Source of the DNA: Bacteroidota bacterium
Lineage (GTDB): Bacteria > Bacteroidota > Ignavibacteria > UBA10030 > UBA6906
Assembly (NCBI GenBank): GCA_030835135.1
Contig: JAUQWO010000041.1
Location: 1 to 55,408 of the forward strand
Direction: 5' to 3'
Length of the DNA stretch: 55,408 nucleotides
Positions 15,469 through 32,979 of the stretch are shown piece after piece. The position numbers and the translations under genes were made by a program. How positions within the stretch are numbered: the stretch's first letter is position 1; every line of letters begins with the position of its first letter. A model generated the notes under the pieces. That model made no database searches and was not told the origin of the DNA. It saw nothing but the letters and a program-made list of their open reading frames with translations.

Positions 15469-16206
15469 ATGACACCAGGACAGACATATTCGCCGTTGCT
15501 TGCACGCTATGCGGAGAAGTACGAGGACCGTCCCCGGATGGAACTCCTGGGGCTGCTGGATGTCCCGTTCCGGACCGTCCTGGAGATCGGGTGCGGCGGT
15601 GGGGCGACCGGCAAGATGATCAAGGACAGGTTTCCGGACACAACGTATATCGGCATCGAGATCGACCGCGAAGCGGCAGGTGACGCCCGCAAGGTGCTGG
15701 ACCATGTGGTGACGTGCGACGTGGAGCGTTTCTCCCTGGAAGATGCCGGTATCCCGCTGCAGGAGATCGATCTGGTGATCCTGGCGGATGTGCTGGAGCA
15801 TCTGTACGACCCCTGGAAGGTGCTCCGCTCCCTCCATGCGCACCTCAGGCCGGAGGGGGCGGTGATCGCGAGCATCCCGAATTCGCAGAACGTCCGTCTG
15901 CTGCAGAATCTCGTCAATGGATTCTGGACGTATGGCAACCAGGGACTTCTCGATGCCACGCACATCCGGTTCTTCACGATGATCGAGATCGGACGCATGT
16001 TCACCGGGAGCGGGTATGTGATCGATCAACTGATCAGCAGTTGTGATGCGGACATGCCGGCCGACGGCAGCTGGCCGCGGGACCTGCACCTCGGCAAGGT
16101 GACCCTGCATGACGTCACCCAGGAGGATATGCAACAGCTGTACACGTTCCAGTATCTTGTCCGGGCGCGGCGCCAGTTGCCGAACGGACCAGGAGGGCAG
16201 CCATGA
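15469..16206 (+). CDS. Class I SAM-dependent methyltransferase
   Basis: This 245-aa methyltransferase has motif I VLEIGCGGGATGKMI at about 37-51, the acidic end of strand beta2 in GIEIDREAA, and the post-I/motif II region DLVILADVLEHLYDP. A GLLDATHIRFFT segment near 165 is typical of Methyltransf_23-type enzymes linked to surface polysaccharide and glycan clusters. A purine-rich AGGGAA precedes ATG 15469. The stop overlaps the next ATG (ATGA 16203-16206). It probably O- or N-methylates a sugar of the glycan made by this operon; it is one of four methyltransferase domains in region 1. Confidence 0.85.
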   Translation: MTPGQTYSPLLARYAEKYEDRPRMELLGLLDVPFRTVLEIGCGGGATGKMIKDRFPDTTYIGIEIDREAAGDARKVLDHVVTCDVERFSLEDAGIPLQEIDLVILADVLEHLYDPWKVLRSLHAHLRPEGAVIASIPNSQNVRLLQNLVNGFWTYGNQGLLDATHIRFFTMIEIGRMFTGSGYVIDQLISSCDADMPADGSWPRDLHLGKVTLHDVTQEDMQQLYTFQYLVRARRQLPNGPGGQP

Positions 16207-17396
16207 TGTACGCGGTCTTGCCCACGGGCAGTTTTCATGGTTGGGGTGTATGTGGCAAGTACATCGCCAAGGAGCTTTCGCGGATCACTCCGGTGGGTCT
16301 CATCACGGAGGGGTTTGACCAGGCCGCCATTCAGGATGTGTTCGACCATCGCCTGTTGCGGGGGTTGCTGGTGCCGGAGCATGAGCAGCAGCAACTGCGG
16401 GCGGGCGCAGCGGTGACGGTGGATGTGCCGGTCCTGCAGAACATCGTGGACAAGACGCTCCGGCCGGCGCTCCCGGCATTCCGCGGATCATGGAACGCCG
16501 GCTACACCTTTTTCGAGGACAACGTGCTGCACCCGTCCTTCATCGAGAACGGCCGCCGCTTCTACGATGTCGTGGTCACGGGGTCGTACTGGTGTGAAGA
16601 AGTGCTTCGCGGGTACGGACTCACCAATGTCACGACGATCATTCAGGGGATCGATCCCACGATCTTCAATCCCGGCCACGCGGAGAAGGAGTATCTGCAG
16701 GACGCGTTCGTGATCTTTTCCGGGGGAAAGTTCGAGCTCCGCAAGGGGCAGGACCTGGTGGTGCGCGCCTTCAAGGTCTTGCAGGACCGTTACCCGGATG
16801 TCCTCCTGGTGAACAGCTGGTACAACCATTGGGCGGCCAGCATGCAGACCATGACGGCGTCGCCGCATATCCGTTTCACCCCGCAGTCGGGCGACTACAT
16901 GGCGCTGATGGAACGGATGTTCGTCGACAATGGGATCGACCCTGCACGGGTGATCACGCTGCCGCCGCTCCCCAACATCATGATGACGCGGATCTACCGG
17001 AATACGGACATCGGGGTATTCCCGAACCGGTGTGAGGGTGGAACGAACCTCGTCCTCATGGAGTACATGGCGTGCGGGAAACCGGTGATCGCGTCGTTCT
17101 CGTCCGGACATCGGGACGTCTTGACCGACCGGAACAGCATGCCGCTCCGCGCATTGCGGCCCATTGCGATCTCCCAGAACGGCGAACAGGTCGCGGTCTG
17201 GGATGACCCGCAACTCGATGAACTTATTGAGCGGCTCGACTGGGCGTACCATCATCGCGGGGAGATGCGTGCGATCGGACAGGAGGCGGGTCAGTTCATG
17301 GCACCGTTGACCTGGGAGCGCACCGCGCGGCAATTCCATGGTGTCTTGAACAAGCAACCGGTGTCCCACAACGTGCCGACGCATCAGTATGCCTGA
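16203..17396 (+). CDS. GT4-type glycosyltransferase
   Basis: The 397-aa product begins at ATG 16203 behind a strong AGGAGGG (16191-16197) and overlaps the upstream stop. The N-terminal domain shows GSFHGWGVCGKYIAKEL, a glycine loop of GT-B enzymes. The C-terminal Glycos_transf_1 domain contains FSGGKFELRKGQDLVVRAF and the donor-binding segment CEGGTNLVLMEYMACGKP, with the E-x7-E pattern represented by E/E in EGGTNLVLME. Overall length is normal for GT4. Its next neighbour (17421) starts 24 nt downstream. Sugar specificity is unknown; a role in the same glycan is inferred from operon membership. Confidence 0.85.
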   Translation: MMYAVLPTGSFHGWGVCGKYIAKELSRITPVGLITEGFDQAAIQDVFDHRLLRGLLVPEHEQQQLRAGAAVTVDVPVLQNIVDKTLRPALPAFRGSWNAGYTFFEDNVLHPSFIENGRRFYDVVVTGSYWCEEVLRGYGLTNVTTIIQGIDPTIFNPGHAEKEYLQDAFVIFSGGKFELRKGQDLVVRAFKVLQDRYPDVLLVNSWYNHWAASMQTMTASPHIRFTPQSGDYMALMERMFVDNGIDPARVITLPPLPNIMMTRIYRNTDIGVFPNRCEGGTNLVLMEYMACGKPVIASFSSGHRDVLTDRNSMPLRALRPIAISQNGEQVAVWDDPQLDELIERLDWAYHHRGEMRAIGQEAGQFMAPLTWERTARQFHGVLNKQPVSHNVPTHQYA

Positions 17397-17420: not shown

Positions 17421-18260
17421 ATGCACGAGACAGTTGTCTGTGTCGCAACTTCGGAACGGACGTGGCGCACGCTCGGGCGGTACTGCTTCAATGCCCCGTT
17501 CATCGCGAACCGTCAGAAATTCGACCTTGCGATCGGGTTCAACGGCAATGATCCCGAGGGGAGGCGGTATCTCGATACGCTGACCCCCGAGTATGTTCTG
17601 ATGCGGCCGAACACCGGTCACGATCTGGCGAACTTTGACAATATCCTGAAGAACATCCCGGGATATCACCACTACATCCTGTTGCATGATGATCACTGGT
17701 TCTATGATGACATGTGGTTCGAGCGGCTGGAGCAACTGCACGGATCCTCTCCCGAGGTCGGCGTGTTCGGCAATCTCGCGCGGTTCGATCTTTCGGGTGA
17801 CTTCAAGGAGTATCATGACCGGGTGTGCAGCTCCATGGGATATACGGAAGTGATCGGGAGGCCCTACCCGCATTTCGTCCAGGGCCTGGCAGGGTCGTAC
17901 ACGGGGCCGGTCATTCGTGCGATCCTCGAGCAGGATGGGATCCCCCATGTTCACCGGAGTGTGCAGGCGGCAGCGCAGGTATTCGAGCGGGTCTTCAGCG
18001 GATTGATGCTCAACCAGGGTGTCCGGTTCGGGCAGATCCCTCCCGGGTTCGAGATGTACCTGGTCCATCGCGATCATAGCTTTGTGAAGATCAAACTCCA
18101 GCAGGCGGCGCACCATATCGCCGGTGGGAACCGGGAGAGCGCGGAGGAGATCTTTCTGATGCTGCACCGGCTGAGACCTGACGACCCGACGGTGACCATC
18201 CGTATCGATGCAGTGCGCTCGGGGCAGGCCGATCCTGCCCGGAATCCCGTGGAGGCATGA
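17421..18260 (+). CDS. Predicted GT-A-fold glycosyltransferase with a DDH motif
   Basis: This 279-aa protein starts at ATG 17421 behind GGGGAG (about 17408-17413). The N-terminal 200 residues look like a small GT-A nucleotide-sugar transferase: an FDLAIGFNGND strand, TGHDLANFDNIL, and YILLHDDHWFYDDMW at about 86-100, where the usual DxD appears as D-D-H. The final 60 residues (HIAGGNRESAEEIFLMLHRLRPDDP) resemble a single TPR hairpin, foreshadowing the TPR genes downstream. It overlaps the next gene by ATGA. I did not recognise a named family, so the glycosyltransferase call rests on motif shape and context. An alternative is a non-catalytic sugar-binding GT-A relative. Confidence 0.5.
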   Translation: MHETVVCVATSERTWRTLGRYCFNAPFIANRQKFDLAIGFNGNDPEGRRYLDTLTPEYVLMRPNTGHDLANFDNILKNIPGYHHYILLHDDHWFYDDMWFERLEQLHGSSPEVGVFGNLARFDLSGDFKEYHDRVCSSMGYTEVIGRPYPHFVQGLAGSYTGPVIRAILEQDGIPHVHRSVQAAAQVFERVFSGLMLNQGVRFGQIPPGFEMYLVHRDHSFVKIKLQQAAHHIAGGNRESAEEIFLMLHRLRPDDPTVTIRIDAVRSGQADPARNPVEA

Positions 18261-19894
18261 CACAGACCATGACACAGCCCGTGGCCACATTCCAGGCGAC
18301 CGTGAAGCGGAATCCTTCATCGCCCGATGCCTGGTTCAATCTCGGGAAGGCCCTTGCCGATGCCGGGGCATTCGCCGGTGCCGTTCTTGCGTACCGCCGG
18401 TCGGCCGAACTGGGGCCCGGGGATGCGTCGATCCACTACAATCTTGGCAATACGCTCCGGCGGGCAGGGGATACAGAGGCCGCCATCGAGGCGTACCGCA
18501 GCGCCATCGCATGGGATCGCAACGATGCCGCGATCCATCTGAATCTGGGATCCGCGTTGGATGAAACCGGAGACCTCGACGGCGCGGTGGAAGCCTACAA
18601 GGAAGCGCTCCGCTGTGACCCGCGCTCGGCGCGGGCATTCAACAATCTTGGCAACGTGTATGACAAGCGGCAGCAGCGATCGCGCGCGGAAGAGGCGTAC
18701 CGCAGTGCATTGCGGCTCCAGCCGGATCTGCCCGATGCATGGTACAATCTTGCCGGCGTGCTCGCACGCCAGGACCGGCCCAAAGAGGCCGAAGCAGCAT
18801 ACCGCGGGGCACTCCGTCTGCGCCCGGAATTCGTCGAAGCTGTCATCAATCTTGCCGGTGTCGTCCAGGATATGGGCCGCTTCACCGAGGCGATCGAGCT
18901 GCTCCGGCATGCTGTCAGTCTGCAACCTGCGTCCGCGGAGGCGCACTTCAACCTGGGCCTGGCCTTGCTGCAGAGCGGCGCGTGGGATGAGGGATGGAGA
19001 GAGTTTGCATGGCGGCACAAGACCGTGGAAGCGCTGACGCATGCACGCGGGAACGCCACTCCCCTGTGGGACGGCGTCGTCCGGTCCGGGGAAACCCTGC
19101 TGGTGCGCGCGGAACAGGGCTATGGCGACACCCTGCAGTGTGCCCGCTTCATCCCGTTCCTGCTCGCGGAGAATGTACGTGTGATCTTCGAATGCCGGTC
19201 CGAACTCCTGCCGATGTTCGACGGATGGCGGGAACGCGTGGAGGTGACCACCCCCGACCGTCCGGCATCAGGCGTGACGCGGGAGATCGGATTGCTTTCC
19301 TTGCCGGCACTACTCAACGTTTCGCCGGACACGATCCCGTCCCGCGTTCCGTATCTGCGCGCGCCGGCGGATCGTTCAGCGGCATGGCGGACGCGGTTGA
19401 GCGCCGGTCGCCGGGCATTGCATGTCGGGATCGTAGCCTCCGGCAATCCTGCCCACAAGAATGACCGGAAGCGTTCCCTCCCGCAGCAGGATCTTCTTCC
19501 GGTGTTCGGCGTACAGGGTGTGGTGTGGCACACGCTCCTCTCGCCTTCGGCTATCCAGGCCGCGGCATTCCCTCCGGGTCTGCCCGTCGTCCACCACGGC
19601 GACGAGATCAAGGACTTTGGTGACTCGGCCGCCCTGATAGAGAACCTTGATCTCCTCCTCAGCGTGGACACGGCCCCGGCGCATCTCGCGGGCGCGCTCG
19701 GGCGTCCGGTATGGGTGATGCTCCCATACAATCCGGATTGGCGCTGGCTTCTCATACGGAACGACACGCCCTGGTATCCGACGGCGAAGCTGTTCCGGCA
19801 ACCGGCGCCGGGCGCCTGGAACGCCGTGGTGGAACAGGTCAGGGATGCCCTGGCGCGTCTCACGATGACCGCACTCCCGGAGGAGGGGGCATGA
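18257..19894 (+). CDS. TPR repeat protein with C-terminal GT9-like glycosyltransferase domain (module 1)
   Basis: This 545-aa protein begins with about seven tandem TPRs (residues 22-240; recurrent A-x-x-N-L-G-x-x-L and A-x-x-A-Y-R-x-A-L). They are followed by a heptosyltransferase-like GT-B domain. Diagnostic motifs are EQGYGDTLQCARF (from E286), SGNPAHKNDRKRS, and VDTAPAHLAGALGRPVW running into PDWRW (D494) and PWYP. TPR plus GT9-like proteins of this build recur in flagellin-glycosylation islands. The TPR part is likely to dock the protein acceptor and the C-terminal part to transfer sugar. ATG 18257 overlaps the upstream stop and the gene ends in another ATGA overlap. It is the first of eight such modules. 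Confidence 0.85.
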   Translation: MTQTMTQPVATFQATVKRNPSSPDAWFNLGKALADAGAFAGAVLAYRRSAELGPGDASIHYNLGNTLRRAGDTEAAIEAYRSAIAWDRNDAAIHLNLGSALDETGDLDGAVEAYKEALRCDPRSARAFNNLGNVYDKRQQRSRAEEAYRSALRLQPDLPDAWYNLAGVLARQDRPKEAEAAYRGALRLRPEFVEAVINLAGVVQDMGRFTEAIELLRHAVSLQPASAEAHFNLGLALLQSGAWDEGWREFAWRHKTVEALTHARGNATPLWDGVVRSGETLLVRAEQGYGDTLQCARFIPFLLAENVRVIFECRSELLPMFDGWRERVEVTTPDRPASGVTREIGLLSLPALLNVSPDTIPSRVPYLRAPADRSAAWRTRLSAGRRALHVGIVASGNPAHKNDRKRSLPQQDLLPVFGVQGVVWHTLLSPSAIQAAAFPPGLPVVHHGDEIKDFGDSAALIENLDLLLSVDTAPAHLAGALGRPVWVMLPYNPDWRWLLIRNDTPWYPTAKLFRQPAPGAWNAVVEQVRDALARLTMTALPEEGA

Positions 19895-21789
19895 GCGTCG
19901 TGGCGGAACACGTGCAGGCAGGTCTCGCGTATCATCGCGCCGGGAAGCTCGATGATGCGGCCCGGGAGTACGGCTATGTGCTCACGGTGGACCCGTCCAA
20001 TGTGGCCGTCCTCCGGCTGATGGGCATCCTCCACACGCACCGCGGCGACCATGATCAGGCGATCATGGTGCTGCAGGCTGCTGCCTCGCTGGAACCCGCT
20101 GCTGCGGAGATCTTCAATGATCTCGGCGTGGCAATGCGGGCGAAAGGCGACGCCCACGCGGCCCTCGATGCATTCAATGATGCCCTCCGGCTCCACCCGA
20201 TGTTCGCTGCCGCGCATTTCAACAAGGGGGTGACCTTGGAGGCGATGGGTGCACGTACCCAGGCCCTGGATGCGTATACGCTTGCCCTCGAGGCCGATGC
20301 GGCATTGCATGCCGCACGATTCAACCGCGCCGCCATCTACTTTGCGTCGGGCCAGTATGCCCGGGCCGCGGAGGATGCGGGCGCGGTCCGCATCGCTGAT
20401 CCTTCGCTCATCGAAGCGCATCTGCTCTTCGGGCGGGCATCGCTGGAACTCCGCCGGCTCGCCGATGCAAAGAAGGCCTTCCGGGCCGTGATCGCGAGGG
20501 CTCCCCATTCCGCCACAGCCCATACATTGCTCGGGTCCGTGTACACGATCGAACACAAGTTCGAGGATGCCGAGGCTGCGCTCACGGAAGCGCTCCGTCT
20601 CGATCCCGCCGATGTGCAGGCAACGTATCTGCTGGGACTCGTGCGGCTGCATCAGTACGATCTTTCCGCGGCACACGATCTGTTCGACCGTGCCCGGCTC
20701 GCTCAGCCGTCACGCCCCGAGGTCACCACGGCCCTTGCCCTGACCGCGCGGCGTGCCGGCCGTCTTGACGACGCCCGGATGTATCTGCGCGCCGCCCTCG
20801 ACGCCGATCCGTCGTACGCCGATGCGCATTGGCACCTTGCAGATCTCCATCTGCTCCTCGGTGAGTACGAACAGGGGTGGGAGGAATTTGAATGGCGCTG
20901 GAACCATGAGGGATTCCTGACGCCGGGGTGGGACCCCTCGATGCGCGCGTGGCAGGGCGAACCGGTCGGGGGGAAGACCGTCCTCCTGTATCCCGAGCAG
21001 GGATTCGGCGATACGCTCCAGTTCGTGCGCTATGCGCCGCTGCTTGCGGAGCGTGGCGCGCGCGTGTTCGTCGGATCACCACCCGAACTCGCGGAGCTTC
21101 TTGCAGACATGCCCGGCGTCAGCGGCATCGTGACCTCCCATGCGGCGGCACCTCCGGTGGACGTGATCTGCCCCCTGATGTCCCTTCCGCGCTTGTTCCG
21201 CACGCGCACCGACAGCGTTCCGGCCACCGTGCCGTACCTGTTCGCCAATCCGGAGAAGACCCGCGCCTGGAGCGCACGATTCCCGGATGACGGCGTGCTG
21301 CGCGTCGGGATCATCTGGTCCGGCAATCCGATGCAGGAGAATAATCGTCATCGGGCATGCCGTCTGCGTGACCTGCTCCCGCTCCTGGACCGCGGCCCCA
21401 TGCATGTATACAGCCTGCAGAAGGGCGAGCCGTCCCGCGAGCTCGCCGGGAATCCCGATACCGCGTCCATCATCGACCTTGCGCCGGCGCTCACCTCGTT
21501 CGCCGAGACCGCCGCCGTCCTCAATGCCATCGATATCCTCATCAGCACGGACACCGGCAGCGTGCACCTTGCCGGTGCCCTCGGACGCCCCGTGTGGCTT
21601 CTGGTCTCCGCCATTCCGGATTGGCGCTGGGGAGTGCAGGGCACAACAACGCCGTGGTATCCCGGCGTTACGATGTTCCGTCAGCATGTGCGCGGCGACT
21701 GGAGCGGTGCGGTACGGGCCGTTGGCGAGGCACTCGATGACCTGCTCCGGTCGCGGCGATCTGTCAATCACCATAGCAAGGAAGAATAG
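19891..21789 (+). CDS. TPR repeat protein with C-terminal GT9-like glycosyltransferase domain (module 2)
   Basis: The product is 632 aa from ATG 19891, which follows a strong GGAGGAGGGGG and overlaps the previous stop. Upstream in-frame codons to 19711 are shadow sequence of the preceding gene. About nine or ten TPRs fill residues 5-335. The GT9-like domain carries EQGFGDTLQFVRY (from E369), WSGNPMQENNRHRAC, and a variant third motif TDTGSVHLAGALGRPVW with DWRW at 577-580 and PWYP. Compared with its sisters the AH of TAxAHLAG is VH, and the region before DWRW is SAIP rather than an LPxxP form. It has the longest TPR array relative to catalytic domain in the set, which could mean a longer acceptor surface. 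Confidence 0.85.
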   Translation: MSVVAEHVQAGLAYHRAGKLDDAAREYGYVLTVDPSNVAVLRLMGILHTHRGDHDQAIMVLQAAASLEPAAAEIFNDLGVAMRAKGDAHAALDAFNDALRLHPMFAAAHFNKGVTLEAMGARTQALDAYTLALEADAALHAARFNRAAIYFASGQYARAAEDAGAVRIADPSLIEAHLLFGRASLELRRLADAKKAFRAVIARAPHSATAHTLLGSVYTIEHKFEDAEAALTEALRLDPADVQATYLLGLVRLHQYDLSAAHDLFDRARLAQPSRPEVTTALALTARRAGRLDDARMYLRAALDADPSYADAHWHLADLHLLLGEYEQGWEEFEWRWNHEGFLTPGWDPSMRAWQGEPVGGKTVLLYPEQGFGDTLQFVRYAPLLAERGARVFVGSPPELAELLADMPGVSGIVTSHAAAPPVDVICPLMSLPRLFRTRTDSVPATVPYLFANPEKTRAWSARFPDDGVLRVGIIWSGNPMQENNRHRACRLRDLLPLLDRGPMHVYSLQKGEPSRELAGNPDTASIIDLAPALTSFAETAAVLNAIDILISTDTGSVHLAGALGRPVWLLVSAIPDWRWGVQGTTTPWYPGVTMFRQHVRGDWSGAVRAVGEALDDLLRSRRSVNHHSKEE

Positions 21790-21793
21790 GCGT

Positions 21794-22450
21794 ATGCCCA
21801 CGCGTGATGATGTCCTGCCGATCCCGGCGGGGGGGTTGGAGCGGTTCGCCGACTTCCTTGCGATGACCGTGGACCAGACGTATCCCGAAACACCATCGGA
21901 GCCTCACACAAGCGTCACCGGGATCATGCTGGAGAAGGTCCTGGCGCTGAGCGGACTGCGCAGATCCGGGCGGATCCTGGATGTGGGGTGCGGACAGGGG
22001 CCCGCGCTCGATGTGATCCGTGAGCGGGGATATCATGCCGTCGGTATCACGGTGAATGATGAGGATCTGCGTGTGTGCCGGGAGAAGGGGCACGAGGTAT
22101 ACAAGATGGAGCAATCGTTCCTCGATTTCCCGCCCGCGAGCTTCGATCTGGTCTGGGCCCGCCATTGTGTGGAGCATAGCGTGATGCCGTTCTTCACCCT
22201 GTTCGGGTTCGCCACGATCCTGCAGGAGGGAGGGTTCCTGTATCTCGAGGTGCCGGCTCCCGATACAGCGTGTCATCATGAGATGAACGTGAACCACTAC
22301 AGCGTGCTGACCAAGAGTTCGTGGAAGTCGTTGCTGCAGCGCTGCGGCTTCGCGATCATCTGGGAGAATGATTTTGAATTCAAGGTGCCGGCCGGTCCGG
22401 ATGCTTACCTGATGTTCGTGTGCCAGAAGAAGGCGCCGGTGAAGGGATGA
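21794..22450 (+). CDS. Class I SAM-dependent methyltransferase
   Basis: ATG 21794 lies 4 nt after the previous stop and gives 218 aa; the frame is open further upstream to 21287, but that part is arginine/serine-rich shadow of the glycosyltransferase. Motif I is ILDVGCGQGPALDVI at about 61-75. Downstream are FDLVWARHCVEHS (motif II region) and a VPAPDTACHHEMNVNHYSV segment, as in Methyltransf_11/23 enzymes of polysaccharide clusters. It separates the single-module from the multi-module TPR-glycosyltransferases and is coupled to the next gene by ATGA. Likely role: methylation of a sugar intermediate or terminal residue of the flagellin glycan. Confidence 0.8.
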   Translation: MPTRDDVLPIPAGGLERFADFLAMTVDQTYPETPSEPHTSVTGIMLEKVLALSGLRRSGRILDVGCGQGPALDVIRERGYHAVGITVNDEDLRVCREKGHEVYKMEQSFLDFPPASFDLVWARHCVEHSVMPFFTLFGFATILQEGGFLYLEVPAPDTACHHEMNVNHYSVLTKSSWKSLLQRCGFAIIWENDFEFKVPAGPDAYLMFVCQKKAPVKG

Positions 22451-25400
22451 GTGCGCTGGTCTCCATAGAGCATGCTCTCGAAAAGCACCGTCGCGGGGAT
22501 CTCGCCGGTGCGCGGGAGGACTATGGACGGATCCTGGAAGGACATCCGGAGGACGTGGCAGCGCTCCACCTGATGGGCGTCGTGTGCAGCCAGCGCCGCG
22601 AATGGGCCGACGCAGAATCCTGGTTCCGCCGGTCCATCGCCCTGGCGCCGTCGTTTGCGCCGGCACACGGGAACCTCGGTCTCGTGCTGGCAGATATGGG
22701 TCGACTTGAAGAAGCGGTGCGATCGCTGGACCGATCGCTCGCGCTCGATCCCGGGCAGGCCGGCGTGTGGAACAATCTTGGTATGGTCCTGGTCCGGTGT
22801 GCACGGTACGCCGGCGCCGTGCAGGCGTGCCGGACCGCGCTCGATCTTGCGCCGGGTTCGGCGGATGCATGGTGCAATCTCGCCAATGCCCTTCGCGGCA
22901 TGGGCGATCTGCCCGGCGCTCTCGAGGCCGCAACGCATGCGACGGAGCTCCGTCCCGATCTGCCCGAAGCGTTCAACAGCAGGGGCAATATCCTTGCTGA
23001 TCTGGACCGGAGCGGCGAGGCGATGGAAGCATATGCACGTGCGCTTGAACTCCGGCCAACCTATCTCAGCCCCCTGAACAATTGTGCGAAGCTCCACCGT
23101 GAGCGCGGTGATCTTGCACGGGCCCGCATGCTCTATGACCGGGCACTCGGGATCGATCCATCGTCGGCCGAGGCCCACTGGGGGTCCTCGTTCGTTCACC
23201 TGCTGGCGGGAGAATTCGCTGAGGGATGGGATGACTATGCCTGGCGCTGGCAACTCCCCATCGTTCCCGATGCCCGGGTCTTCCCGTCCCCCCGATGGGA
23301 TGGCAATGTCCGCCGTGGGATGACGCTGCTGCTCGTCTGCGAGCAGGGTCTCGGTGATGCGATACAGTTCATCCGGTATGCATCGATCCTTGCGGCACGG
23401 GGGGTACACGTTCTCGTGGAAGCTCCCGAAGCACTCGTCCGCCTGCTGGGTCCGGTCGACGGCGTGGAGCAGGTCGTGGTGCGGGGCTCCGCTCTTCCGG
23501 CGCACGGTGCGCATTGCCCGCTCCTGGATCTGCCCCGTCACTGCGGCACCACCCTGACGACGATCCCTGCCACGGTGCCATACCTGCATGTGGATCCAGC
23601 CTCGTCTCCGTGGAACGAGCGCATCCGGCGCGATGGCGCAGGTCTCAGGGTTGGGCTCGTGTGGGCCGGGAGCGCGGGGCATATGGACGACCGGCGGCGC
23701 TCGTGCGGGGCCGGACTGATGAGCCGTATCGCGGATGTCCCGGGTGTGCGGGTGTACAACCTGCAGCAATGTGCGGATCCGGACAGCATCCCTGACGACC
23801 TCCGGCGCGCATGGGTGGATCACAGTGACGCATTTCATGACGTCATGGATACGGCCGGACTCGTAGCACATCTCGATCTGGTGATCACGGTCGATACCAT
23901 GGTGGCCCATCTTGCGGGAGCGATGGGCATCCCCGTGTGGCTGCTGTTGCCGTTCGCACCCGACTGGCGGTGGATGCTCGGGCGCGACGACTCTCCATGG
24001 TATCCGACGATGCGGCTCTTCCGGCAGCCGGAACCGGGAGCGTGGGCACAGGTCGTGGATCGTGTGCGCGATGAGTTGATGAGATCCGTTGCGAACCGTG
24101 TCCCCGCGACCGGCCAACTGGAGTCCGCAACGACGATAGGGGACGCGCTGCGCCTCCATGAGTCCGGCGACCTGGCCGCGGCCAGCGAGGCCTACCGCGC
24201 CATCCTGCGTGCCGTGCCCGACGATCCGGATGCGTTGTATCTGCTTTCGGTCCTCGGCCATCAGACAGGTCGTCCGGATGAGGGGCTCCGGAGCGTCAGG
24301 CGTTTGCTGGCATTGCAGCCGAACCATCCGGAGGGATGGAATAGTCTGGGCAATCTGCTGCACGATTCGGGGGATCTGTGCGGAGCGGAGGAGGCCTTCC
24401 GTCATGCGCTCCGGATCAGGCCTGACTACGGTGATGTCGTGTACAATCTGGGCCGTGTGCTGTGCGATCAATGGCAGCTTGATGAAGCGCTCGTCTGTTG
24501 TGAACGGGCCCGGGCACTCGGCGTGCGTGAGACGCTTGCACGCAATAACGCCGGCCTCGTGCTCTACCGCCAGGGGAAGATCAGTGAAGCGATCGCAGAG
24601 TATCGCACGGCCCTGGCGATCGATCCGTCATTCGCGGATGCGCACTGGAACCTTGCCCACGCGCTGCTCCACACCGGAGCATTCGCCGAGGGGTGGAAGG
24701 AATATGAATGGCGCTGGGCCCGCCCGGAGTTCCGCGGGATGCTCGCCGGACACACGAAGCCTCTGTGGGATGGGACGCCCATGCACGGGAAGACGATACT
24801 CCTCTGGGCGGAGCAGGGCTTTGGCGATCTGATCCATTGTCTGCGCTACCTGCGCACTGTTGCCGGCCGCGGCCTGCGGATCGTGATGGAGGTCCCCGTG
24901 CCGATGGTACGTCTTGTCGCGGCCCTGCCCGAGGTTGCGGAGGTCGTTCCCCGCGGCGCACTGCCGCCTCACGATGTGCAGCTGCCGATCATGAGCCTCC
25001 CCGGTGTCCTGGGATCTCCGGAGGGGGCCGAACCCACAGGTCCGTTCATCACCGCCGATGCCCCGGCACGTGCACGATGGGAGGAGCGCTTCGTCCACAT
25101 CGGGTCAGCGCTCCGTGTGGGTATCGTGTGGACCGGGAGCCGTACCAATACTGCCGGCCGGTACCGGTCGGTACCGATCGATGCGCTCGCCCCGCTTGCG
25201 GAATTGCCGGGCATATTCTTCGTCGACCTGCAGAAGGACGACGCAGATGATGGATTTGCCGGCTCACCCCTTGCCGCGTCGGGCGCGGATTGGACACACG
25301 AGCTGAACGACTTTGCCGACACTGCCGCGCTCATCGCTGTCCTGGATGTGGTTGTTACGATCGACACCGCCGTGGCGCATCTTGCCGGTGCCCTGGGCAA

Positions 25401-26619
25401 GGACGTGGTGCTCCTCCTGTCCCGGCACCATGATTGGCGGTGGGGAAACGAAGGTGACACGACCCGCTGGTACGGATCATTCCGGCTGCTCCGCCAAACG
25501 CGGCAGGGCGATTGGCAGGATGTGATCGCGCGATGCCGCGCGCTCCTGGAGCATCGAACGGGTTTTGAACCGTCCGTGAATGCGGGTGTGGCGCACCTCT
25601 ATGATGGGAACCCCGGACACGCCATGCGCGATCTTGAGCGCGCCGTGGCGCTTGTCCCGGACCACGCCGCTGCACATTTCAATCTGGCCCTTGCACTCCT
25701 TGCTACCGGTGACTGGGTGCGTGGGTTCGCGGAGTACGAATGGCGCCTTCAAATGGAGGGCGCACATGCCTCACGGCGTCCGTACCCGCAGCCACGGTGG
25801 CGCGGAGAGTCGCTGCAGGGGAAGACCGTGTTCGTGTATGCGGAACAGGGATTCGGCGACGCGATCCAGTTCGTCCGGTATGCCACGGTTCTGCGCGACA
25901 GAGGCGCCCGGGTCATCGTTGAATGCCGGCGCGAACTCACAACGCTCGTGCGCTGTGCTGCCGGTGTCGATGAGGTGATCACGCGCGGTGATGAGCCTCC
26001 GGCATTCGACCTGCATGTGCCGATGGCGAGCATTCCGGGGATCGTTGGTACGACACCGCACAACGTGCCTGCGCACATCCCATACATCCTGCTTCCGGCG
26101 GACCTGCGGAGGCGTCGGCCGGCCTTCCTCGCGGACGCCGGGCCGGGGCCTGTGATCGGCGTGGTATGGTCGGGGAACAGCGTATCGGCCATTGACAGTG
26201 AGCGGTCGCTCGCGCGGCAGCAGATGATGGCATTCCTCCCCGCGGAGGGCGTGACATACGTGAGCCTGCAGCCCGGGCGGACAGGCGAGGCGACCGGGCA
26301 GGAGGGTGATCATCGCATCCTCGATGCTGCGCCGGTGATACGGGACTTTCTTGATACCGCGCACATCATCAGTCATTGTGCCATGGTCGTCAGCGTCGAC
26401 ACTGCGGTCGCCCATCTTGCCGGAGCACTCGGCATACCGGTCGTGAACCTGATACCGGTGCATGCGGACTGGCGATGGCTTGCCGGGGGTGAGCGGACGG
26501 TGTGGTACCCATCGATGTACCTGCGCAGGCAGACGCACCGTGGCGTCTGGGATGATGTGTTGCGTGCGGTAGCCAACGATATACAGCGGATACGAGAGCA
26601 CTATGATCATCAGCAATGA
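22447..26619 (+). CDS. Triple TPR/GT9-like fusion glycosyltransferase (modules 3, 4, 5)
   Basis: At 1390 aa, this protein contains three complete TPR plus GT9-like units in tandem. ATG 22447 (ATGA overlap) is preferred over GTG 22420, which lacks a ribosome site. Unit 1: TPRs to about 270, EQGLGDAIQFIRY from E299, DTMVAHLAGAMGIPVW, DWRW at 506. Unit 2: TPRs at about 562-752, EQGFGDLIHCLRY from E789, DTAVAHLAGALGKDVV, DWRW at 996. Unit 3: a short TPR spacer at about 1040-1098, EQGFGDAIQFVRY from E1133, DTAVAHLAGALGIPVV, DWRW at 1341. Unit 2 has WYG in place of WYP and a T-G-S-R replacement in the S-G-N-P motif, so it may have changed specificity or activity. The fusion probably arose by in-operon gene duplication. 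Confidence 0.85.
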   Translation: MSALVSIEHALEKHRRGDLAGAREDYGRILEGHPEDVAALHLMGVVCSQRREWADAESWFRRSIALAPSFAPAHGNLGLVLADMGRLEEAVRSLDRSLALDPGQAGVWNNLGMVLVRCARYAGAVQACRTALDLAPGSADAWCNLANALRGMGDLPGALEAATHATELRPDLPEAFNSRGNILADLDRSGEAMEAYARALELRPTYLSPLNNCAKLHRERGDLARARMLYDRALGIDPSSAEAHWGSSFVHLLAGEFAEGWDDYAWRWQLPIVPDARVFPSPRWDGNVRRGMTLLLVCEQGLGDAIQFIRYASILAARGVHVLVEAPEALVRLLGPVDGVEQVVVRGSALPAHGAHCPLLDLPRHCGTTLTTIPATVPYLHVDPASSPWNERIRRDGAGLRVGLVWAGSAGHMDDRRRSCGAGLMSRIADVPGVRVYNLQQCADPDSIPDDLRRAWVDHSDAFHDVMDTAGLVAHLDLVITVDTMVAHLAGAMGIPVWLLLPFAPDWRWMLGRDDSPWYPTMRLFRQPEPGAWAQVVDRVRDELMRSVANRVPATGQLESATTIGDALRLHESGDLAAASEAYRAILRAVPDDPDALYLLSVLGHQTGRPDEGLRSVRRLLALQPNHPEGWNSLGNLLHDSGDLCGAEEAFRHALRIRPDYGDVVYNLGRVLCDQWQLDEALVCCERARALGVRETLARNNAGLVLYRQGKISEAIAEYRTALAIDPSFADAHWNLAHALLHTGAFAEGWKEYEWRWARPEFRGMLAGHTKPLWDGTPMHGKTILLWAEQGFGDLIHCLRYLRTVAGRGLRIVMEVPVPMVRLVAALPEVAEVVPRGALPPHDVQLPIMSLPGVLGSPEGAEPTGPFITADAPARARWEERFVHIGSALRVGIVWTGSRTNTAGRYRSVPIDALAPLAELPGIFFVDLQKDDADDGFAGSPLAASGADWTHELNDFADTAALIAVLDVVVTIDTAVAHLAGALGKDVVLLLSRHHDWRWGNEGDTTRWYGSFRLLRQTRQGDWQDVIARCRALLEHRTGFEPSVNAGVAHLYDGNPGHAMRDLERAVALVPDHAAAHFNLALALLATGDWVRGFAEYEWRLQMEGAHASRRPYPQPRWRGESLQGKTVFVYAEQGFGDAIQFVRYATVLRDRGARVIVECRRELTTLVRCAAGVDEVITRGDEPPAFDLHVPMASIPGIVGTTPHNVPAHIPYILLPADLRRRRPAFLADAGPGPVIGVVWSGNSVSAIDSERSLARQQMMAFLPAEGVTYVSLQPGRTGEATGQEGDHRILDAAPVIRDFLDTAHIISHCAMVVSVDTAVAHLAGALGIPVVNLIPVHADWRWLAGGERTVWYPSMYLRRQTHRGVWDDVLRAVANDIQRIREHYDHQQ

Positions 26620-29467
26620 CAGGCAATCAGCCTCTGACAAAGACGCTGCGATCCGGCGGACATCCAAGGCCGAAGCGCTGAACGTTCTCGGGATGAGGGC
26701 GGTCCAGCGTGGGGACTACGCTGAAGCCGTGGCGTTGTTCGGTCAGGCCGTCGCGACGGATCCGGCGTCCGCGGACGCGCAGTACAATCTTGCGCGGGCG
26801 CTGAAGGATGCGGGTCGGACCATCGAGGCCCGGGACGCGTTTCGGAAGGTCGTGGCGCTCCACCCTGCCGATGCTGATGCCTGGTACACGATGGGGAATA
26901 CCTGCGCGATGCTGGGCGATCACGTGGGAGCGGAGCGGGCCTACCGGCAGGCCCTGGAGCTTCGCCCGGAAGACGTGCGCATGTACAACAACCTTGCCGT
27001 GGCCTTGCAGACGCTCGGGCGTCTGGATGAGGCAGATGCCGTTGCCTGTGTCGGTCTTGCCATCGATCCTGGGTACGCAGACCTGCATTACAACCACGCT
27101 CTCGTGTTGTTGCTGCAGGGACGGTTTACGGAGGGATGGCGAGAATTCGAATACCGCTTCGACACCAGCGATCATGCCAACCCATCGCGCACGGGCCTGC
27201 ACCGGCGCTGGTCGGGTGATGCCCTGGACGGGAAGACGCTCCTGCTCACATCCGAACAGGGCCTTGGCGACACGATCCAGTTCGTTCGTTTCGCCCGGCA
27301 TCTGAAGGACCGGGGGGCGACGGTGATCGTGGAGTGTGCCGAGGAACTGGCCGCGTTGTTGCTTTCTGCACCCGGCGTGGACTCGGTGGTCCCCCGCGGC
27401 AGTGCCATCCCCCCGTACGATCACTGGACGCCCATGCTGAGCGTACCGGGGCTCACCGGCATGGACAATGAGCACGTTTTTGGTCTCACGGTGCCGTACC
27501 TGTTCCCCGATCAGGCAAAGACCGGCATGTGGCGTACGCGCCTCCAGGAGTTCCCCGCCGGCGTGCGTGTCGGTTGTGTGTGGTCCGGCAATCCCCGGCA
27601 CCGCAACGATCAGGCCCGCTCGTGCCCCCCGGGAGAATTCACGGCGTTGGCTGCGATCCCCGGCATCCAGTTCTTCAGTCTTCAGGTCCGCACGGACACC
27701 GCGGCATCCCGAGCTCTGTTTCCCATGTGTCATGATCTCACGGACGGGATCCGCGATCTCAGTGACACGGCGGCGTTCATCAGTGCACTCGATCTCGTCA
27801 TCACGGTCGACACCGCCGTGGCACATCTGGCGGGCGCAATGGGGAAACCTGTCTGGCTTCTGCTGCCGCACGCTCCCGACTGGCGCTGGATGCTCAGGCG
27901 GAAGGACAGTCCCTGGTATCCCTCCATGACGATCCATCGCCAGGAGCGCGCGGGAGACTGGTCGGGCGTCTTCGCGAACGTGGCGGGGGAATTGCGCAGG
28001 ATGGCATCGATGCCCCATCAGGTTCCTCGATCCACCGCGGGCGGCACGCCGGCGCGCAGTCCGCTTCTCCGTGGTGCGCCGCCGCGTCGTGATGTACGCG
28101 CACTCCTGGATCCTGCGCCCTTGCTCACCTATGCGGATGCGCTGACGCAGGCGGGGAACCGCCGGCATGCGATCGATACGTACCGCCGGTTGCTGGCATT
28201 CCACCCGGCGATCGCGCCGGCATGGAACAACCTGGGTGTCTGTCTTCAGCAGGAGGGCGATCTCTCCGATGCGATCGCCGCCTTTGAGCGGGCTGCGAAG
28301 ATCGATCCGACGAACGCGGCTGTTCTGAACAACTTCGGATTCGCCCTGAGCGAGTATGGAGTTCGTGCCCGTGCGGCCGAGGTGCTTCGTTCTGCGATCA
28401 TGCTTGATCCCACTCTGGCGGAGGCGCACAACAATCTCGGCAACATCCTCAGGGCCGAGGATGACCGGACCGGTGCCCGGCACGCCTATGAAACCGCGAT
28501 CCGTTGCAGGGGAGATTTTCCCGAGCCGCATTGGAATCTCGCGCAATTGCTCTTGCAGGACGGTGAGTTTGAGCAGGGGTGGGCGGAATACGAGTGGCGG
28601 TGGCGGCGGGCGGATTTCACGAGCCCACGCCGCCCATTCTCCCAACCGGTCTGGAATGGCGAAGACGTGCGGGGGAAGACGATCCTCGTGCATGCCGAGC
28701 AGGGATACGGCGACACGATCCAGTTCATACGCTATCTGACGCTCGTGCACGGTCGCGGGGCGCGCATCATCCTGGAGTGCCAGCCCGCGCTGGTCCGGCT
28801 CTTCCTCGGTCTGCCGATGGTGCACGCGGTGGTGGGGACCGGTTCTCCGCTCCCCGCATTCGACATGCATGTGCCACTCATGTCGCTGCCGCGCATCTTC
28901 GGGACAACGATGAGGACCATTCCGAAGCAGACCCCCTATCTGAACGTCCATGGTGCCGACGTGCGGCAATGGCGTTCCATCATTGCCGGCGATGGGCCGG
29001 CGGTCGGCGTGGTCTGGTCGGGCGCACAACAAGTGAAAGCGCTGCGCAACCGCACCTGTCCACTTCCCCTGATGGCGCCGCTGTTCTCGATCGCCGGGCT
29101 GCGCATGTACAGTCTGCAGGTAGGAGATGCGGCCGCGGAGCTCGACAAAGTACCCACCGGATTCCGCCCGGTGGACCTCGGGCCGCACCTGCGTGACTTT
29201 GCGGACACCGCGGCCGCCGTGAGTATGCTCGACGTGGTGATCAGCATCGATACGGCCGTGGCACATCTTGCGGGCGCTCTGGGCCGGCGGGTATGGTTGC
29301 TTCTTCCCGAGGATGCCGACTGGCGGTGGATGCGTGATCGTGACGATTCTCCCTGGTATCCGGAGATGTCTCTCTATCGTGAGCGGCGGGGTGAGGGGTG
29401 GTCGCCTGTGATCGCCCGCGTGGGTGAGGCGCTGCGGGGACTGGTGGACAGGCATCGGGGCCGATGA
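26603..29467 (+). CDS. Double TPR/GT9-like fusion glycosyltransferase (modules 6, 7)
   Basis: The product is 954 aa, starting at ATG 26603 inside the end of the preceding gene (17-nt overlap, no clear ribosome site, so coupled translation is likely). Two units are visible. Unit 1: TPRs at about 20-185, EQGLGDTIQFVRF from E218, WSGNPRHRNDQARS, VDTAVAHLAGAMGKPVW, DWRW at 426. After a proline/arginine-rich linker (about 470-500), unit 2: TPRs at about 510-660, EQGYGDTIQFIRY from E699, IDTAVAHLAGALGRRVW, DWRW at 906. Unit 2 has lost most of the S-G-N-P-H-N-D segment (SGAQQVKALRNRT instead), so its donor pocket may differ. It ends in an ATGA overlap with the next gene. Confidence 0.85.
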   Translation: MIISNDRQSASDKDAAIRRTSKAEALNVLGMRAVQRGDYAEAVALFGQAVATDPASADAQYNLARALKDAGRTIEARDAFRKVVALHPADADAWYTMGNTCAMLGDHVGAERAYRQALELRPEDVRMYNNLAVALQTLGRLDEADAVACVGLAIDPGYADLHYNHALVLLLQGRFTEGWREFEYRFDTSDHANPSRTGLHRRWSGDALDGKTLLLTSEQGLGDTIQFVRFARHLKDRGATVIVECAEELAALLLSAPGVDSVVPRGSAIPPYDHWTPMLSVPGLTGMDNEHVFGLTVPYLFPDQAKTGMWRTRLQEFPAGVRVGCVWSGNPRHRNDQARSCPPGEFTALAAIPGIQFFSLQVRTDTAASRALFPMCHDLTDGIRDLSDTAAFISALDLVITVDTAVAHLAGAMGKPVWLLLPHAPDWRWMLRRKDSPWYPSMTIHRQERAGDWSGVFANVAGELRRMASMPHQVPRSTAGGTPARSPLLRGAPPRRDVRALLDPAPLLTYADALTQAGNRRHAIDTYRRLLAFHPAIAPAWNNLGVCLQQEGDLSDAIAAFERAAKIDPTNAAVLNNFGFALSEYGVRARAAEVLRSAIMLDPTLAEAHNNLGNILRAEDDRTGARHAYETAIRCRGDFPEPHWNLAQLLLQDGEFEQGWAEYEWRWRRADFTSPRRPFSQPVWNGEDVRGKTILVHAEQGYGDTIQFIRYLTLVHGRGARIILECQPALVRLFLGLPMVHAVVGTGSPLPAFDMHVPLMSLPRIFGTTMRTIPKQTPYLNVHGADVRQWRSIIAGDGPAVGVVWSGAQQVKALRNRTCPLPLMAPLFSIAGLRMYSLQVGDAAAELDKVPTGFRPVDLGPHLRDFADTAAAVSMLDVVISIDTAVAHLAGALGRRVWLLLPEDADWRWMRDRDDSPWYPEMSLYRERRGEGWSPVIARVGEALRGLVDRHRGR

Positions 29468-31053
29468 TGAGTGCCCGGTGGGACATACCCATGTCGGAGG
29501 GGCAACCCGCGGTGACGTTGAGCGCGGTGCGTGAAGCGCGCCGCCGCGGTGACCTGGCGTTCGTGCGCTCGGGATATGAGCATCTGTCTGCGGGCCGGGA
29601 TGCATCCTGGGAAGTCTTCATCGAGTGGGCGGAGTTCCTCAGTGGCACGGGGTCGTTCGAGGAGGCCGTGACGGCACTCCGCGATGCAGCGGGACGGTTT
29701 CCGAACAACCCCGCAGTGCTCAACAGTCTAGGCCTTGCGCTGCAAAGCACGGGAGACCATGGAGGAGCGGCGCATGCGTTCGAGCAGGGTCTCCGGGCAA
29801 CCCCGGGGGCCGGGGCGATCGCCTACAACCTGGCCAATGCCCGCCGTGACCTGGGTGATATCCCCGGCGCCATGTCCGCGTATGTGAAGGCGTTGGAACT
29901 CGGTCCGCCGGTCCCCGAGATGTTCAACAATCTCGGACTGTTGTTTCAAGAGACCGGCGATGTGGCGCATGCTGCCACGGCGTACCGATCGGCGTTGGAC
30001 CTCGACGCTGCGTTTCTGCCCGCGGCACTCAATCTGGGGTATCTCCACATTCAAGAGCGCGACCCTGTCCGTGCGGTCGCCGTCTTCGAGGCTGCGCTCC
30101 GTCATCACCCCCATCATCCCGATGTACACTGGTTGTTGTCGCATGCCCTGCTGGTGATGGGCGAGTATCCGCGCGGATGGAAGGAATATGAGTGGCGCTG
30201 GGAGAAGATGCGGGGTGCCTCGTACCGCAGGAAGGATGCGTCGCTGCAGTGGGCAGGTGAGCCGCTGGGGGGGAGGCGCATCCTGTTGTATGCCGAACAG
30301 GGTTTGGGCGATGCGATCCAGTGTGCCAGGTATATCCCGATGGTGGCGGCAGCGGGCGGGGAGGTGATCGTCGAATGTCAGCCGGAGCTCGTCGCATTGA
30401 TGCGTACGGTGTCCGGGGTGGCGGAGGTTGTTGCGCGCGGCGCACAGGTCCCCCCGCATGACCTCGCCTGTCCCCTGATGTCGTTGCCCGGGGTCTTCGG
30501 GACCACGCTGGAGACGATCCCCCGTGTGGTACCGTATGTGTACGCCGAACCCGGGAAGGTGGCGGCATGGGAGGAGTGGTCGCGTGGTGGTGCACCCGGG
30601 CGCCGTGTCGGGGTGGTGTGGGCGGGGAACCCGTCGCACCGCAACGATGCGCGGCGGTCGATGCCGTCGTCGCACCTTGTGCAGCTCACCGGGGTGGAGG
30701 GTGTGCGGTGGGTGAGTCTGCAGAAGGGTGAGCGGGGGGATGGTGGTGACCGTGTGCCGGCGGGGGTGGGGATCGAGGATGTTGGTTCGCGGTTGCACGA
30801 TCTTGCGGACACGGCGGCGCTCGTGATGCACTGCGATCTGGTGATCGCGGTGGACACGGCGGTAGCGCATCTGGCGGGGGCGTTGGGGAAGCCGGTCTGG
30901 GTGATGGTGCCGTACGCTCCGGACTGGCGGTGGTTATTGGAGGGTGAGGGGACGGGGTGGTATCCGACGGCGCGGTTGTACCGTCAGCCTTCCCCCGGGA
31001 ATTGGGATGCCGTTATTGCGCATATCGGTGCCGACCTCCGGGCGTTGCCCTGA
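29464..31053 (+). CDS. TPR repeat protein with C-terminal GT9-like glycosyltransferase domain (module 8)
   Basis: This is the 529-aa last gene of the glycan operon, beginning at ATG 29464 (ATGA overlap). About five TPRs occupy residues 40-235. The GT9-like domain shows EQGLGDAIQCARY (from E278), WAGNPSHRNDARRS, VDTAVAHLAGALGKPVW, and DWRW at 487 with GWYP. It resembles module 1 most closely in the Q-C-A-R-Y variant of the first motif. Its stop is 267 bp upstream of flagellin 1, which ties the operon physically to its probable acceptor. No convincing terminator follows, so some read-through into the flagellin region is possible. Confidence 0.85.
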   Translation: MMSARWDIPMSEGQPAVTLSAVREARRRGDLAFVRSGYEHLSAGRDASWEVFIEWAEFLSGTGSFEEAVTALRDAAGRFPNNPAVLNSLGLALQSTGDHGGAAHAFEQGLRATPGAGAIAYNLANARRDLGDIPGAMSAYVKALELGPPVPEMFNNLGLLFQETGDVAHAATAYRSALDLDAAFLPAALNLGYLHIQERDPVRAVAVFEAALRHHPHHPDVHWLLSHALLVMGEYPRGWKEYEWRWEKMRGASYRRKDASLQWAGEPLGGRRILLYAEQGLGDAIQCARYIPMVAAAGGEVIVECQPELVALMRTVSGVAEVVARGAQVPPHDLACPLMSLPGVFGTTLETIPRVVPYVYAEPGKVAAWEEWSRGGAPGRRVGVVWAGNPSHRNDARRSMPSSHLVQLTGVEGVRWVSLQKGERGDGGDRVPAGVGIEDVGSRLHDLADTAALVMHCDLVIAVDTAVAHLAGALGKPVWVMVPYAPDWRWLLEGEGTGWYPTARLYRQPSPGNWDAVIAHIGADLRALP

Positions 31054-31320: not shown

Positions 31321-32166
31321 ATGGCACAGCAGATATCCCTCACCTCCGCGATGCGCGCGAACCTGCTCAGTTTGCAGAACACGGTTTCGTTGCTGAATCG
31401 CACCCAGGATCGGCTTTCGTCCGGGAAAAAGGTCAACAGCGCTCTGGACAGCCCGACCAACTACTTCGCGGCGAAGGCGCACGTGAACCGTGCGAACGAC
31501 ATCGCTGGCCGGAAGGACAGTATGGGCGAAGCGATCCAGACGGTGAAGACGGCAAGCAGCGGCATCGAGTCGATCAACACCCTGATCGAATCGGCGAAAG
31601 GTATCGCGCAGGCCGCACTGGCCACGAGCGACACCACGCAGCGCGCGCAGTATGTGACGCAGTACAACGCGGTGATCAGCCAGATCAACACGATGGCCAG
31701 TGACTCTGGCTATCGCGGGACGAACCTCCTTGTGGCGAACACCCTTGGTGTGAAGTTCAATGAGGATGGTGCGAGCTCGCTGAGCATCGAAGGTTTCAAG
31801 GCCACGGCCACCGGTCTGACGGTCGGCATCGTGGGACAGGCCACCGGCGGTATCGCCGCGTCCTGGTCCGATGCCACCAATGGCGTTGGCTCGATCAACT
31901 CGGCATTGACGCAGCTGTCGGATGCCCTGAGCACCCTGCGCGTGAAGGCCTCGGCGCTGTCGTCGAGCCTGAGCATCGTGCAGACCCGCGCGGACTGGGC
32001 GGATCAGATGATCGCGACCCTGAATTCCGGCGCCGGCTCGCTCACGGATGCCGACATGAACGAAGAAGGTGCGAACATGCTGATGCTGCAGACCCGGCAG
32101 TCACTGGGTACCACAGCCCTCAGTCTGTCGGCCCAGAACGCTCAGTCGGTGCTCCGTCTGTTCTAG
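31321..32166 (+). CDS. fliC: Flagellin 1
   Basis: This 281-aa flagellin is the filament subunit secreted by the flagellar type III system. The conserved D0/D1 N-terminus (NLLSLQNTVSLLNRTQDRL, then GKKVNSALDSPTNYF) and the C-terminus (TRQSLGTTALSLSAQNAQ ending in LRLF) flank a very short middle, so the D2/D3 outer domain is essentially missing, as in compact flagellins of Alphaproteobacteria such as Caulobacter. The sequence is rich in serine and threonine, which are plausible O-glycosylation sites for the upstream glycan operon. AAAGGGGG precedes ATG 31321. Two sigma-28 promoters lie upstream and a strong hairpin follows. It differs from flagellin 2 at roughly 24 of 281 positions by eye. Confidence 0.96.
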   Translation: MAQQISLTSAMRANLLSLQNTVSLLNRTQDRLSSGKKVNSALDSPTNYFAAKAHVNRANDIAGRKDSMGEAIQTVKTASSGIESINTLIESAKGIAQAALATSDTTQRAQYVTQYNAVISQINTMASDSGYRGTNLLVANTLGVKFNEDGASSLSIEGFKATATGLTVGIVGQATGGIAASWSDATNGVGSINSALTQLSDALSTLRVKASALSSSLSIVQTRADWADQMIATLNSGAGSLTDADMNEEGANMLMLQTRQSLGTTALSLSAQNAQSVLRLF

Positions 32167-32181
32167 TCGTAGCCCGCGGCG

Positions 32182-32210
32182 CGGGAGGGAGGCACGGTGC
32201 CTCCCTCCCG
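32182..32210 (+). terminator. GC-rich hairpin after flagellin 1
   Basis: CGGGAGGGAGGCAC and its reverse complement form a near-perfect 14-bp inverted repeat (32182-32195 with 32197-32210, 1-nt centre) starting 15 nt after the flagellin stop. No T-tract follows. It may act as a partial terminator or as a 3' stabiliser of flagellin mRNA that limits read-through into flaF. Confidence 0.6.
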
Positions 32211-32271
32211 GTCGCACTGTACCAGAAGCAACGCCGTCCATACGAGAACGTTCAGTAAAGGATACCAGGTC

Positions 32272-32649
32272 ATGCACGCGAGTCAGGCAGAGGTCTACAG
32301 TCGGAATCAGGTTGCAGCACTCGGCGATCGGGAAGCGGAAGCGGCGGTGCTGATGAAGGCGGCGGCCTTGATGAAGCATGTGCAAACGCATTGGGCGGCC
32401 ACGGACCGTGACCGGAGTCTGGAGAAGGCGTTGCGGTACAATCAGCGTCTGTGGACATTCTTCCAGGTGGCGTTGCTGGACGACAAGAATCCGTTGCCGC
32501 AGGGGATCAAGGAGAACGTGCTCCGTTTGAGTGCATTCATCGATCGGCGGATCTTCGATACCCTGGCGTTCCCGGCACCGGAGAAGCTGGACATCCTTAT
32601 TAATATCAACACGAACATCGCGGCAGGCCTGAAGGGGTCTGCGCAGTAA
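32272..32649 (+). CDS. flaF: FlaF family flagellin regulator/chaperone (copy 1)
   Basis: The 125-aa product matches the FlaF pattern: an N-terminal AEVYS segment, a helical EAEAAVLMKAAALM block, the hallmark NQRLWTFFQVALLDDKNPLP, and a C-terminal LININTNIAAGLKG. In Alphaproteobacteria FlaF is needed for flagellin production/secretion and works against FlbT. ATG 32272 has AAAGGA (32257-32262) upstream and aligns with the start of the second copy at 35241; a longer GTG start at 32197 would run through the post-flagellin hairpin and is rejected. It lies between flagellin 1 and an FlgM-like gene, all presumably read from the sigma-28 promoters. Confidence 0.85.
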   Translation: MHASQAEVYSRNQVAALGDREAEAAVLMKAAALMKHVQTHWAATDRDRSLEKALRYNQRLWTFFQVALLDDKNPLPQGIKENVLRLSAFIDRRIFDTLAFPAPEKLDILININTNIAAGLKGSAQ

Positions 32650-32674
32650 ACGACCGAATCCAGGAGTGTGGGTC

Positions 32675-32953
32675 ATGACGATCTCGACCATCATCAGCAA
32701 TGCGGCGCCGGTCAGCTCCATGCGGGGCGGCCGGGTGGGGGAGGAGCGGCGCGGTGCGGTGGCAGCACACGAGACGATCCGGGACCGGGTGAGTGTTTCC
32801 GGCCGGGCCCTGGCCCTGAACGCAGCGGACGATGCGCGGAAACTGGATGTGATCCGGGAGCGTGTCCGCCGCGGGTATTACCTGGATGGATATGTGACGG
32901 AGCAGGTTGTGGATAGTGTTGCCCGGGAGATCGAAGCAGCCCTGGGCCGCTGA
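32675..32953 (+). CDS. flgM: FlgM-like anti-sigma-28 protein (copy 1)
   Basis: A 92-aa protein starts at ATG 32675 with CAGGA 9 nt upstream. The C-terminal half (DRVSVSGRAL, then KLDVIRERVRRGYYLDGYV and a closing EQVVDSVAREI helix) follows the FlgM layout: a V-x-[LV]-S motif, a helix R-x-x-x-[IL]-[RK]-x-x-[IV]-x-x-G-x-Y, and a last amphipathic helix. The N-terminal half is low in structure, as in FlgM, which is mostly disordered and exported through the flagellum. FlgM holds sigma-28 inactive until the hook is complete. A gene of the same type ends the next flagellin cluster (35642). The assignment is by motif shape, not by close identity, so moderate confidence. Confidence 0.6.
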   Translation: MTISTIISNAAPVSSMRGGRVGEERRGAVAAHETIRDRVSVSGRALALNAADDARKLDVIRERVRRGYYLDGYVTEQVVDSVAREIEAALGR

Positions 32954-32979
32954 CGGCAAGAGGTCCCCGCCTACGTTTC

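Follow-up and report, generated by a model that had tools for sequence, protein, structure and literature searches.

An ordered array of eight TPR-GT9-like modules beside two flagellin genes, a candidate cytosolic flagellin glycosylation system in a Bacteroidota genome

We identified, in a 55,408-nucleotide stretch of a Bacteroidota genome (the window; GenBank assembly GCA_030835135.1, contig JAUQWO010000041.1), an array of eight modules, each consisting of a tetratricopeptide repeat (TPR) stretch followed by a GT9-like half of ~300 residues, encoded by five genes directly upstream of two flagellin genes. The array most likely glycosylates flagellin, and its best explanation on the whole of the analysis, which we consider likely, is a set of eight cytosolic protein glycosyltransferase modules that would be dedicated to the two adjoining flagellins in the manner of Caulobacter FlmG. 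Directly observed are the fold of one module, the motifs of all eight, the linkage to flagellin in several genera and the conservation of the modules by position. The array with its positional conservation, a candidate specificity segment and a genome in which the nonulosonic acid pathway went undetected are new here, while the size of the fusions is ordinary for the family. The genes concerned, in order along the window, are as follows.

184-17396, + strand: upstream glycosylation island with several GT2 and GT4 (group 1) domains, some multi-domain chains, and methyltransferases
17421-18260, + strand: conserved protein upstream of gene A with weak GT2 resemblance, 55-65% identical and in the same place in three related genomes (G070, G059 and G060)
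18257-19894, + strand: gene A, ~6 TPR-like units and one GT9-like module (GT half 18977-19888)
19891-21789, + strand: gene B, ~9 TPR-like units and one GT9-like module (GT half 20860-21783)
21794-22450, + strand: SAM-dependent methyltransferase between B and C (PF13489/PF08241)
22447-26619, + strand: gene C, triple TPR-GT fusion (GT halves C1 23209-24114, C2 24676-25590, C3 25708-26610)
26603-29467, + strand: gene D, double TPR-GT fusion (GT halves D1 27119-28039, D2 28562-29458)
29464-31053, + strand: gene E, TPR superhelix and GT-B/GT9-like module (GT half 30160-31047)
31321-32166, + strand: flagellin 1, 281 aa, short type, likely acceptor (PF00669/PF00700)
32197-32649, + strand: FlaF, flagellin export chaperone family (PF07309, E 5e-28)
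33128-33973, + strand: flagellin 2, 281 aa, likely acceptor
34859-35272, + strand: FlbT, flagellin regulator family (PF07378, E 5e-38)
35241-35624, + strand: second FlaF (PF07309, E 1e-30)

The five array genes run head to tail, overlapping or abutting, and carry their modules in a 1-1-3-2-1 arrangement (A, B, C, D, E). A first-pass annotation had described eight modules in five consecutive genes; both counts stand, and the genes are not consecutive, since the methyltransferase gene separates B and C. A homologue of this methyltransferase adjoins gene C in G070, G059 and G060 as well. The motifs EQGxGD, DTxxxHLAGA[LM]G and DWRW are kept in all eight modules, as first described, and the spacing from EQGxGD to DWRW is 207-209 residues throughout. 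A profile built from the eight matched exactly those eight in the 4.9-Mb genome, with no ninth. The number of TPR-like units preceding a module does differ, from 9 down to 1 by a crude and therefore approximate count, and C3 has only ~1 TPR of its own. Within the upstream island, two very long chains (1164 aa and ~2224 aa, at 3426-13585) combine GT2, GT4/group 1, methyltransferase and TPR domains.

A sequence search of the PDB with the GT-module profile gave one chance match and no relative, so that structure comparison was needed. The AlphaFold2 model of gene E (71 relatives in the alignment; pLDDT 93, pTM 0.90) contains a TPR superhelix and a GT-B half, so that the fold presupposed by the first-pass annotation was found. 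Its catalytic half is matched best by GT9 structures and aligns with the GT9 protein 3tov (Z 20.1, 246 residues, 2.6 A), WaaF 1psw (Z 18.6), WaaC 2h1h (Z 18.1) and the protein heptosyltransferase TibC 4rap (Z 16.7). The GT9-like identity is also borne out by hhalign, in which the module profile matches canonical GT9 proteins from the order with a probability of 98% over 226 columns; the two GD motifs coincide, R166 falls on the R-W motif of GT9, and DTxxxHLAGA on its DTxxxHLA. From what is known of WaaC, we take the GD aspartate to be the catalytic base and the arginine and DTxxxHLA sites to lie on the donor side. In a genome scan with PF01075, six modules exceeded the curated cut-off, but over only ~30-45 of 247 positions, and the scores per module (20-27 bits) are partial and borderline. 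For the whole architecture of gene E, OGT and SPINDLY head the Foldseek list, and membership in GT41 was therefore considered; the OGT sequence matches (phmmer) fall in or at the TPR part, and GT9 takes first place for the catalytic half.

We then compared 231 modules from many phyla, among which E46, G48, D51, R57, R166, H237, W258, W267 and Y268 are near-invariant. Conservation reaches 99-100% at E46, D51, R57, R166, H237, W258, W267 and Y268, none of which is altered in any of the eight modules of the window. At other positions conserved at ≥99% in the family, these modules show single departures only, D226A in C3 and Q276E in D2. The three motifs are a signature of the whole family and not special to this locus. 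Because the catalytic core positions are kept, all eight modules may be catalytically active; inactivation of some modules through loss of core residues is not supported, on the same ground.

The alignment and tree proposed in the first-pass annotation gave pairwise identities of 32-45% among the eight modules. In a careful 35-row tree, A, B, C1, C2, C3, D2 and E each form a cross-genus clade by position with 97-100% bootstrap, and D1 pairs with its G070 counterpart at 99%; in a quick 84-row tree D1 joins the D1 of G059. The 1-1-3-2-1 arrangement recurs in G059 over two contigs, while D1 is absent from G060 and C3 from gene C of G070, all three being fragmented assemblies. These positional orthologues and patchy single absences point to an array that was already present in the ancestor of both genera compared and that seems to have lost modules one at a time. 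A recent local duplication was rejected as the origin of the eight modules, given that orthologues by position are closer than paralogues across genera. The modules of Geobacteraceae, Telmatospirillum and cyanobacteria showed no one-to-one grouping with those of the window in the quick tree.

The SGNPxHxND segment had been reported to vary between modules; it does, and it varies by position and not at random. Residues 153-169, which hold this segment directly before the donor-side arginine R166, rank first of 280 windows for position-specific conservation between genera, with an identity of 0.64 within a position and 0.39 between positions. The B version is conserved as GNPxQENNRHRAC, the C2 version as a G-S-x-x-N-x-x-G-x-x-R pattern and the D2 version as a pattern lacking GNP, while A, D1 and E remain close to the commonest form. 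Geobacter arrays likewise have four distinct, position-specific versions; in Telmatospirillum the donor-side segments are nearly uniform in the eight modules compared. A positional orthologue for each module together with a position-specific segment favours eight specialised activities over redundancy, of which we see no sign in the sequences. Since the most position-specific part of the modules is the stretch before the donor-side arginine, the most economical reading, and one that we hold to be somewhat more probable than its alternatives combined, is that the donor used, or the partial glycan that is extended, differs from module to module. The earlier proposal that each module may add one sugar or read a different site is supported in its spirit, as the modules look specialised, and sequence does not separate sugar from site. 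If segment 153-169 sets the donor, glycan composition could be predicted from sequence and altered through exchange of modules, and specificity in cytosolic O-glycosylation would become directly testable.

The first-pass annotation had also suggested an assembly line within one chain. This is weakened by relatives that lack single modules and by Oryzomonas, in which two genes share the modules that Geobacter carries in one, so that covalent joining is not essential. Fusion as such is evolutionarily loose, and an assembly line need not be covalent. In a tandem model of C2 and C3 both modules are well folded with little TPR between them; a fixed geometry of the pair was rejected, as the model has a pTM of 0.61 and the mutual orientation is not predicted. 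A strict sequential assembly line is on balance doubtful. More tentatively still, the array could be a heterotypic assembly line for the flagellin glycan, in which every one of the eight modules contributes a sugar of its own, or places a common sugar on a partial glycan of its own. The glycan would then be encoded in the module set and the choice of donor in the stretch preceding the donor-side arginine; homotypic arrays, of which the ten-module Telmatospirillum protein is an example, would make or place repeats of one sugar.

Rather less probable is that all modules add the same first sugar to different Ser/Thr residues of flagellin, with equivalent GT halves and TPRs that pick the site. The strong differences in TPR length between modules would fit such a division of sites, as would the report that Caulobacter FljK is modified at four threonines (PMC7591256), which makes several sites per flagellin realistic. 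However, one FlmG is enough for several sites and for several flagellins, so that sites alone would not call for eight enzymes; C3 is nearly without TPR; and the GT half has conserved position-specific differences that are strongest beside the donor-side arginine. That only some modules are active and the others are scaffolds or decaying copies is improbable: C2, C3 and D2 deviate from the commonest segment, C3 combines D226A with little TPR, and relatives do without C3 or D1, but the catalytic core is intact in every module and the departures in the segment are conserved between genera, unlike decay.

The linkage to flagellin, drawn in the first-pass annotation, held up on wider comparison. 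Among the 98 genomes of the order, flagellin is present in 31 and full-length modules in 7, all of which are among those 31 (hypergeometric P 2e-4, which overstates independence as the seven genomes are related). The modules lie ~0.2-5 kb from a flagellin gene in all seven, and this adjacency involves two flagellin types that are ~25% identical to each other. The order of array, flagellin, FlbT and FlaF is found also in Geomonas, Oryzomonas, Geobacter and a Desulfuromonadaceae MAG. Flagellin 1 is 89% identical to its counterpart in G070, 81% in G060 and 51-56% in Geobacteraceae. Between the same genomes flagellins are 81-89% identical and modules ~45-60%, as in G070, where flagellin is at 89% and the adjacent modules at ~51-60%; flagellin is far more conserved than the modules, and the acceptor alone therefore does not explain their divergence. 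In the window the two short flagellins are near-identical, each with a FlaF gene downstream, and there is one FlbT (31321-35624).

GT9 enzymes have their classical role in the LPS core, and the upstream island is rich in GT2 and GT4 domains, which would suit modules that build a surface polysaccharide (LPS or capsule) with flagellin as a mere neighbour. Alternatively the modules could modify another exported protein, as family members elsewhere adjoin giant exported proteins (an exoprotein of at least 2500 aa in Burkholderia relatives, an Ig-like protein in Azospirillum). We consider this pair of possibilities unlikely: modules are found repeatedly next to flagellin genes, of two very different types and across at least two phyla, and LPS-like work could fall to the separate canonical GT9 proteins, of which the genome encodes at least eight.

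For flagellin glycosylation by the array, we propose that the TPR superhelix would hold flagellin before export, as in Caulobacter FlmG, while the GT-B half would move a sugar from a soluble nucleotide donor onto Ser/Thr or extend a sugar already present. The upstream island at 184-17396 may supply or extend the glycan, which it and the methyltransferase would finish. NeuB was not detected in the genome (no PF03102 match, at a completeness given as 100%, with Caulobacter positive in the control), which makes a nonulosonic acid an improbable donor. The Maf-related MptE-like/MAF_flag10 domain (PF01973) also had no match anywhere in the genome, in a search whose control set was without a known Maf bacterium.

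Several known systems resemble the array in part. TibC glycosylates an exported protein in the cytosol and shares the GT9-like fold with the modules; unlike them it has no TPR array, forms a dodecamer with iron and acts on an autotransporter. The classical GT9 heptosyltransferases WaaC and WaaF (PF01075) have the GT-B fold with GD and DTxxxHLA in the same places, but lack TPR and act on LPS, whereas the modules carry TPR and match PF01075 only partially. Eukaryotic OGT and SPINDLY (GT41) have a TPR superhelix followed by GT-B and are the top Foldseek matches by overall architecture, whereas GT9 structures come first for the catalytic half of gene E. FlmG of Caulobacter crescentus, compared here by architecture, has an N-terminal TPR domain that binds flagellin and a C-terminal GT-B domain that glycosylates it in the cytosol, for which pseudaminic acid is needed (PMC7591256). 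Its host and the window share a flagellin system of the FlaF/FlbT type. FlmG is one single-module enzyme of 596 aa supplied with pseudaminic acid via NeuB, whereas the window has eight modules, fusions, GT9-like motifs and no detected NeuB. In the literature searched we found no characterised TPR and GT-B flagellin glycosyltransferase besides FlmG. The locus shows this architecture to occur also as large, ordered and long-conserved arrays, in genomes with no detectable nonulosonic acid pathway.

The module family is very common but little studied. A single scan returned 566 relatives, and loci come from Proteobacteria, Cyanobacteria, Acidobacteria, Nitrospirota, Thermodesulfobacteriota and others, usually annotated as TPR protein or 'tetratricopeptide repeat-containing glycosyltransferase family protein'. 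Literature searches on Burkholderia BCAL0111, on Geobacter and on flagellin-linked GT9 with TPR found no studies of such arrays. The same module family forms arrays of 2-10 modules per chain in Geobacteraceae, Telmatospirillum and cyanobacteria; those of Geobacteraceae, like the window's, precede flagellin, FlbT and FlaF, and those of Telmatospirillum differ from it in the nearly uniform donor-side segments of the modules compared. Three catalytic units in one chain had been thought unusual, a view that is not supported: six modules occur in a Hormoscilla protein, five in other cyanobacteria, four and a split one in Geobacter, and ten in Telmatospirillum. Multi-module chains being frequent, the triple fusion was rejected as a rarity. 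The Telmatospirillum MAG encodes its ten TPR-GT modules in one 5379-aa frame (contig JARLJB010000238.1) and has 29 in the genome.

Flagellin lies within the fetched stretch at only 13 of the 80 named loci of the family, and action on flagellin is unlikely for the cyanobacterial members. We infer that these enzymes may form a single family that glycosylates exported proteins in the cytosol. At seven loci in Burkholderia, Paraburkholderia and Trinickia, three TPR-GT genes lie directly upstream of the gene for an exoprotein of at least 2500 aa. The exoprotein looks secreted, with 17-20% Ser/Thr and almost no Cys, and is a candidate acceptor; the two tested had no Pfam match. On a plasmid of Azospirillum sp. 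TSH100, TPR-GT genes lie near the gene of a 6.6-kaa Ig-like giant protein, and serralysin-like RTX proteins are found near family members at two other loci. In four flagellin arrays of Geobacteraceae, the last GT module is appended with almost no TPR and has an apparent insertion of ~90 residues.
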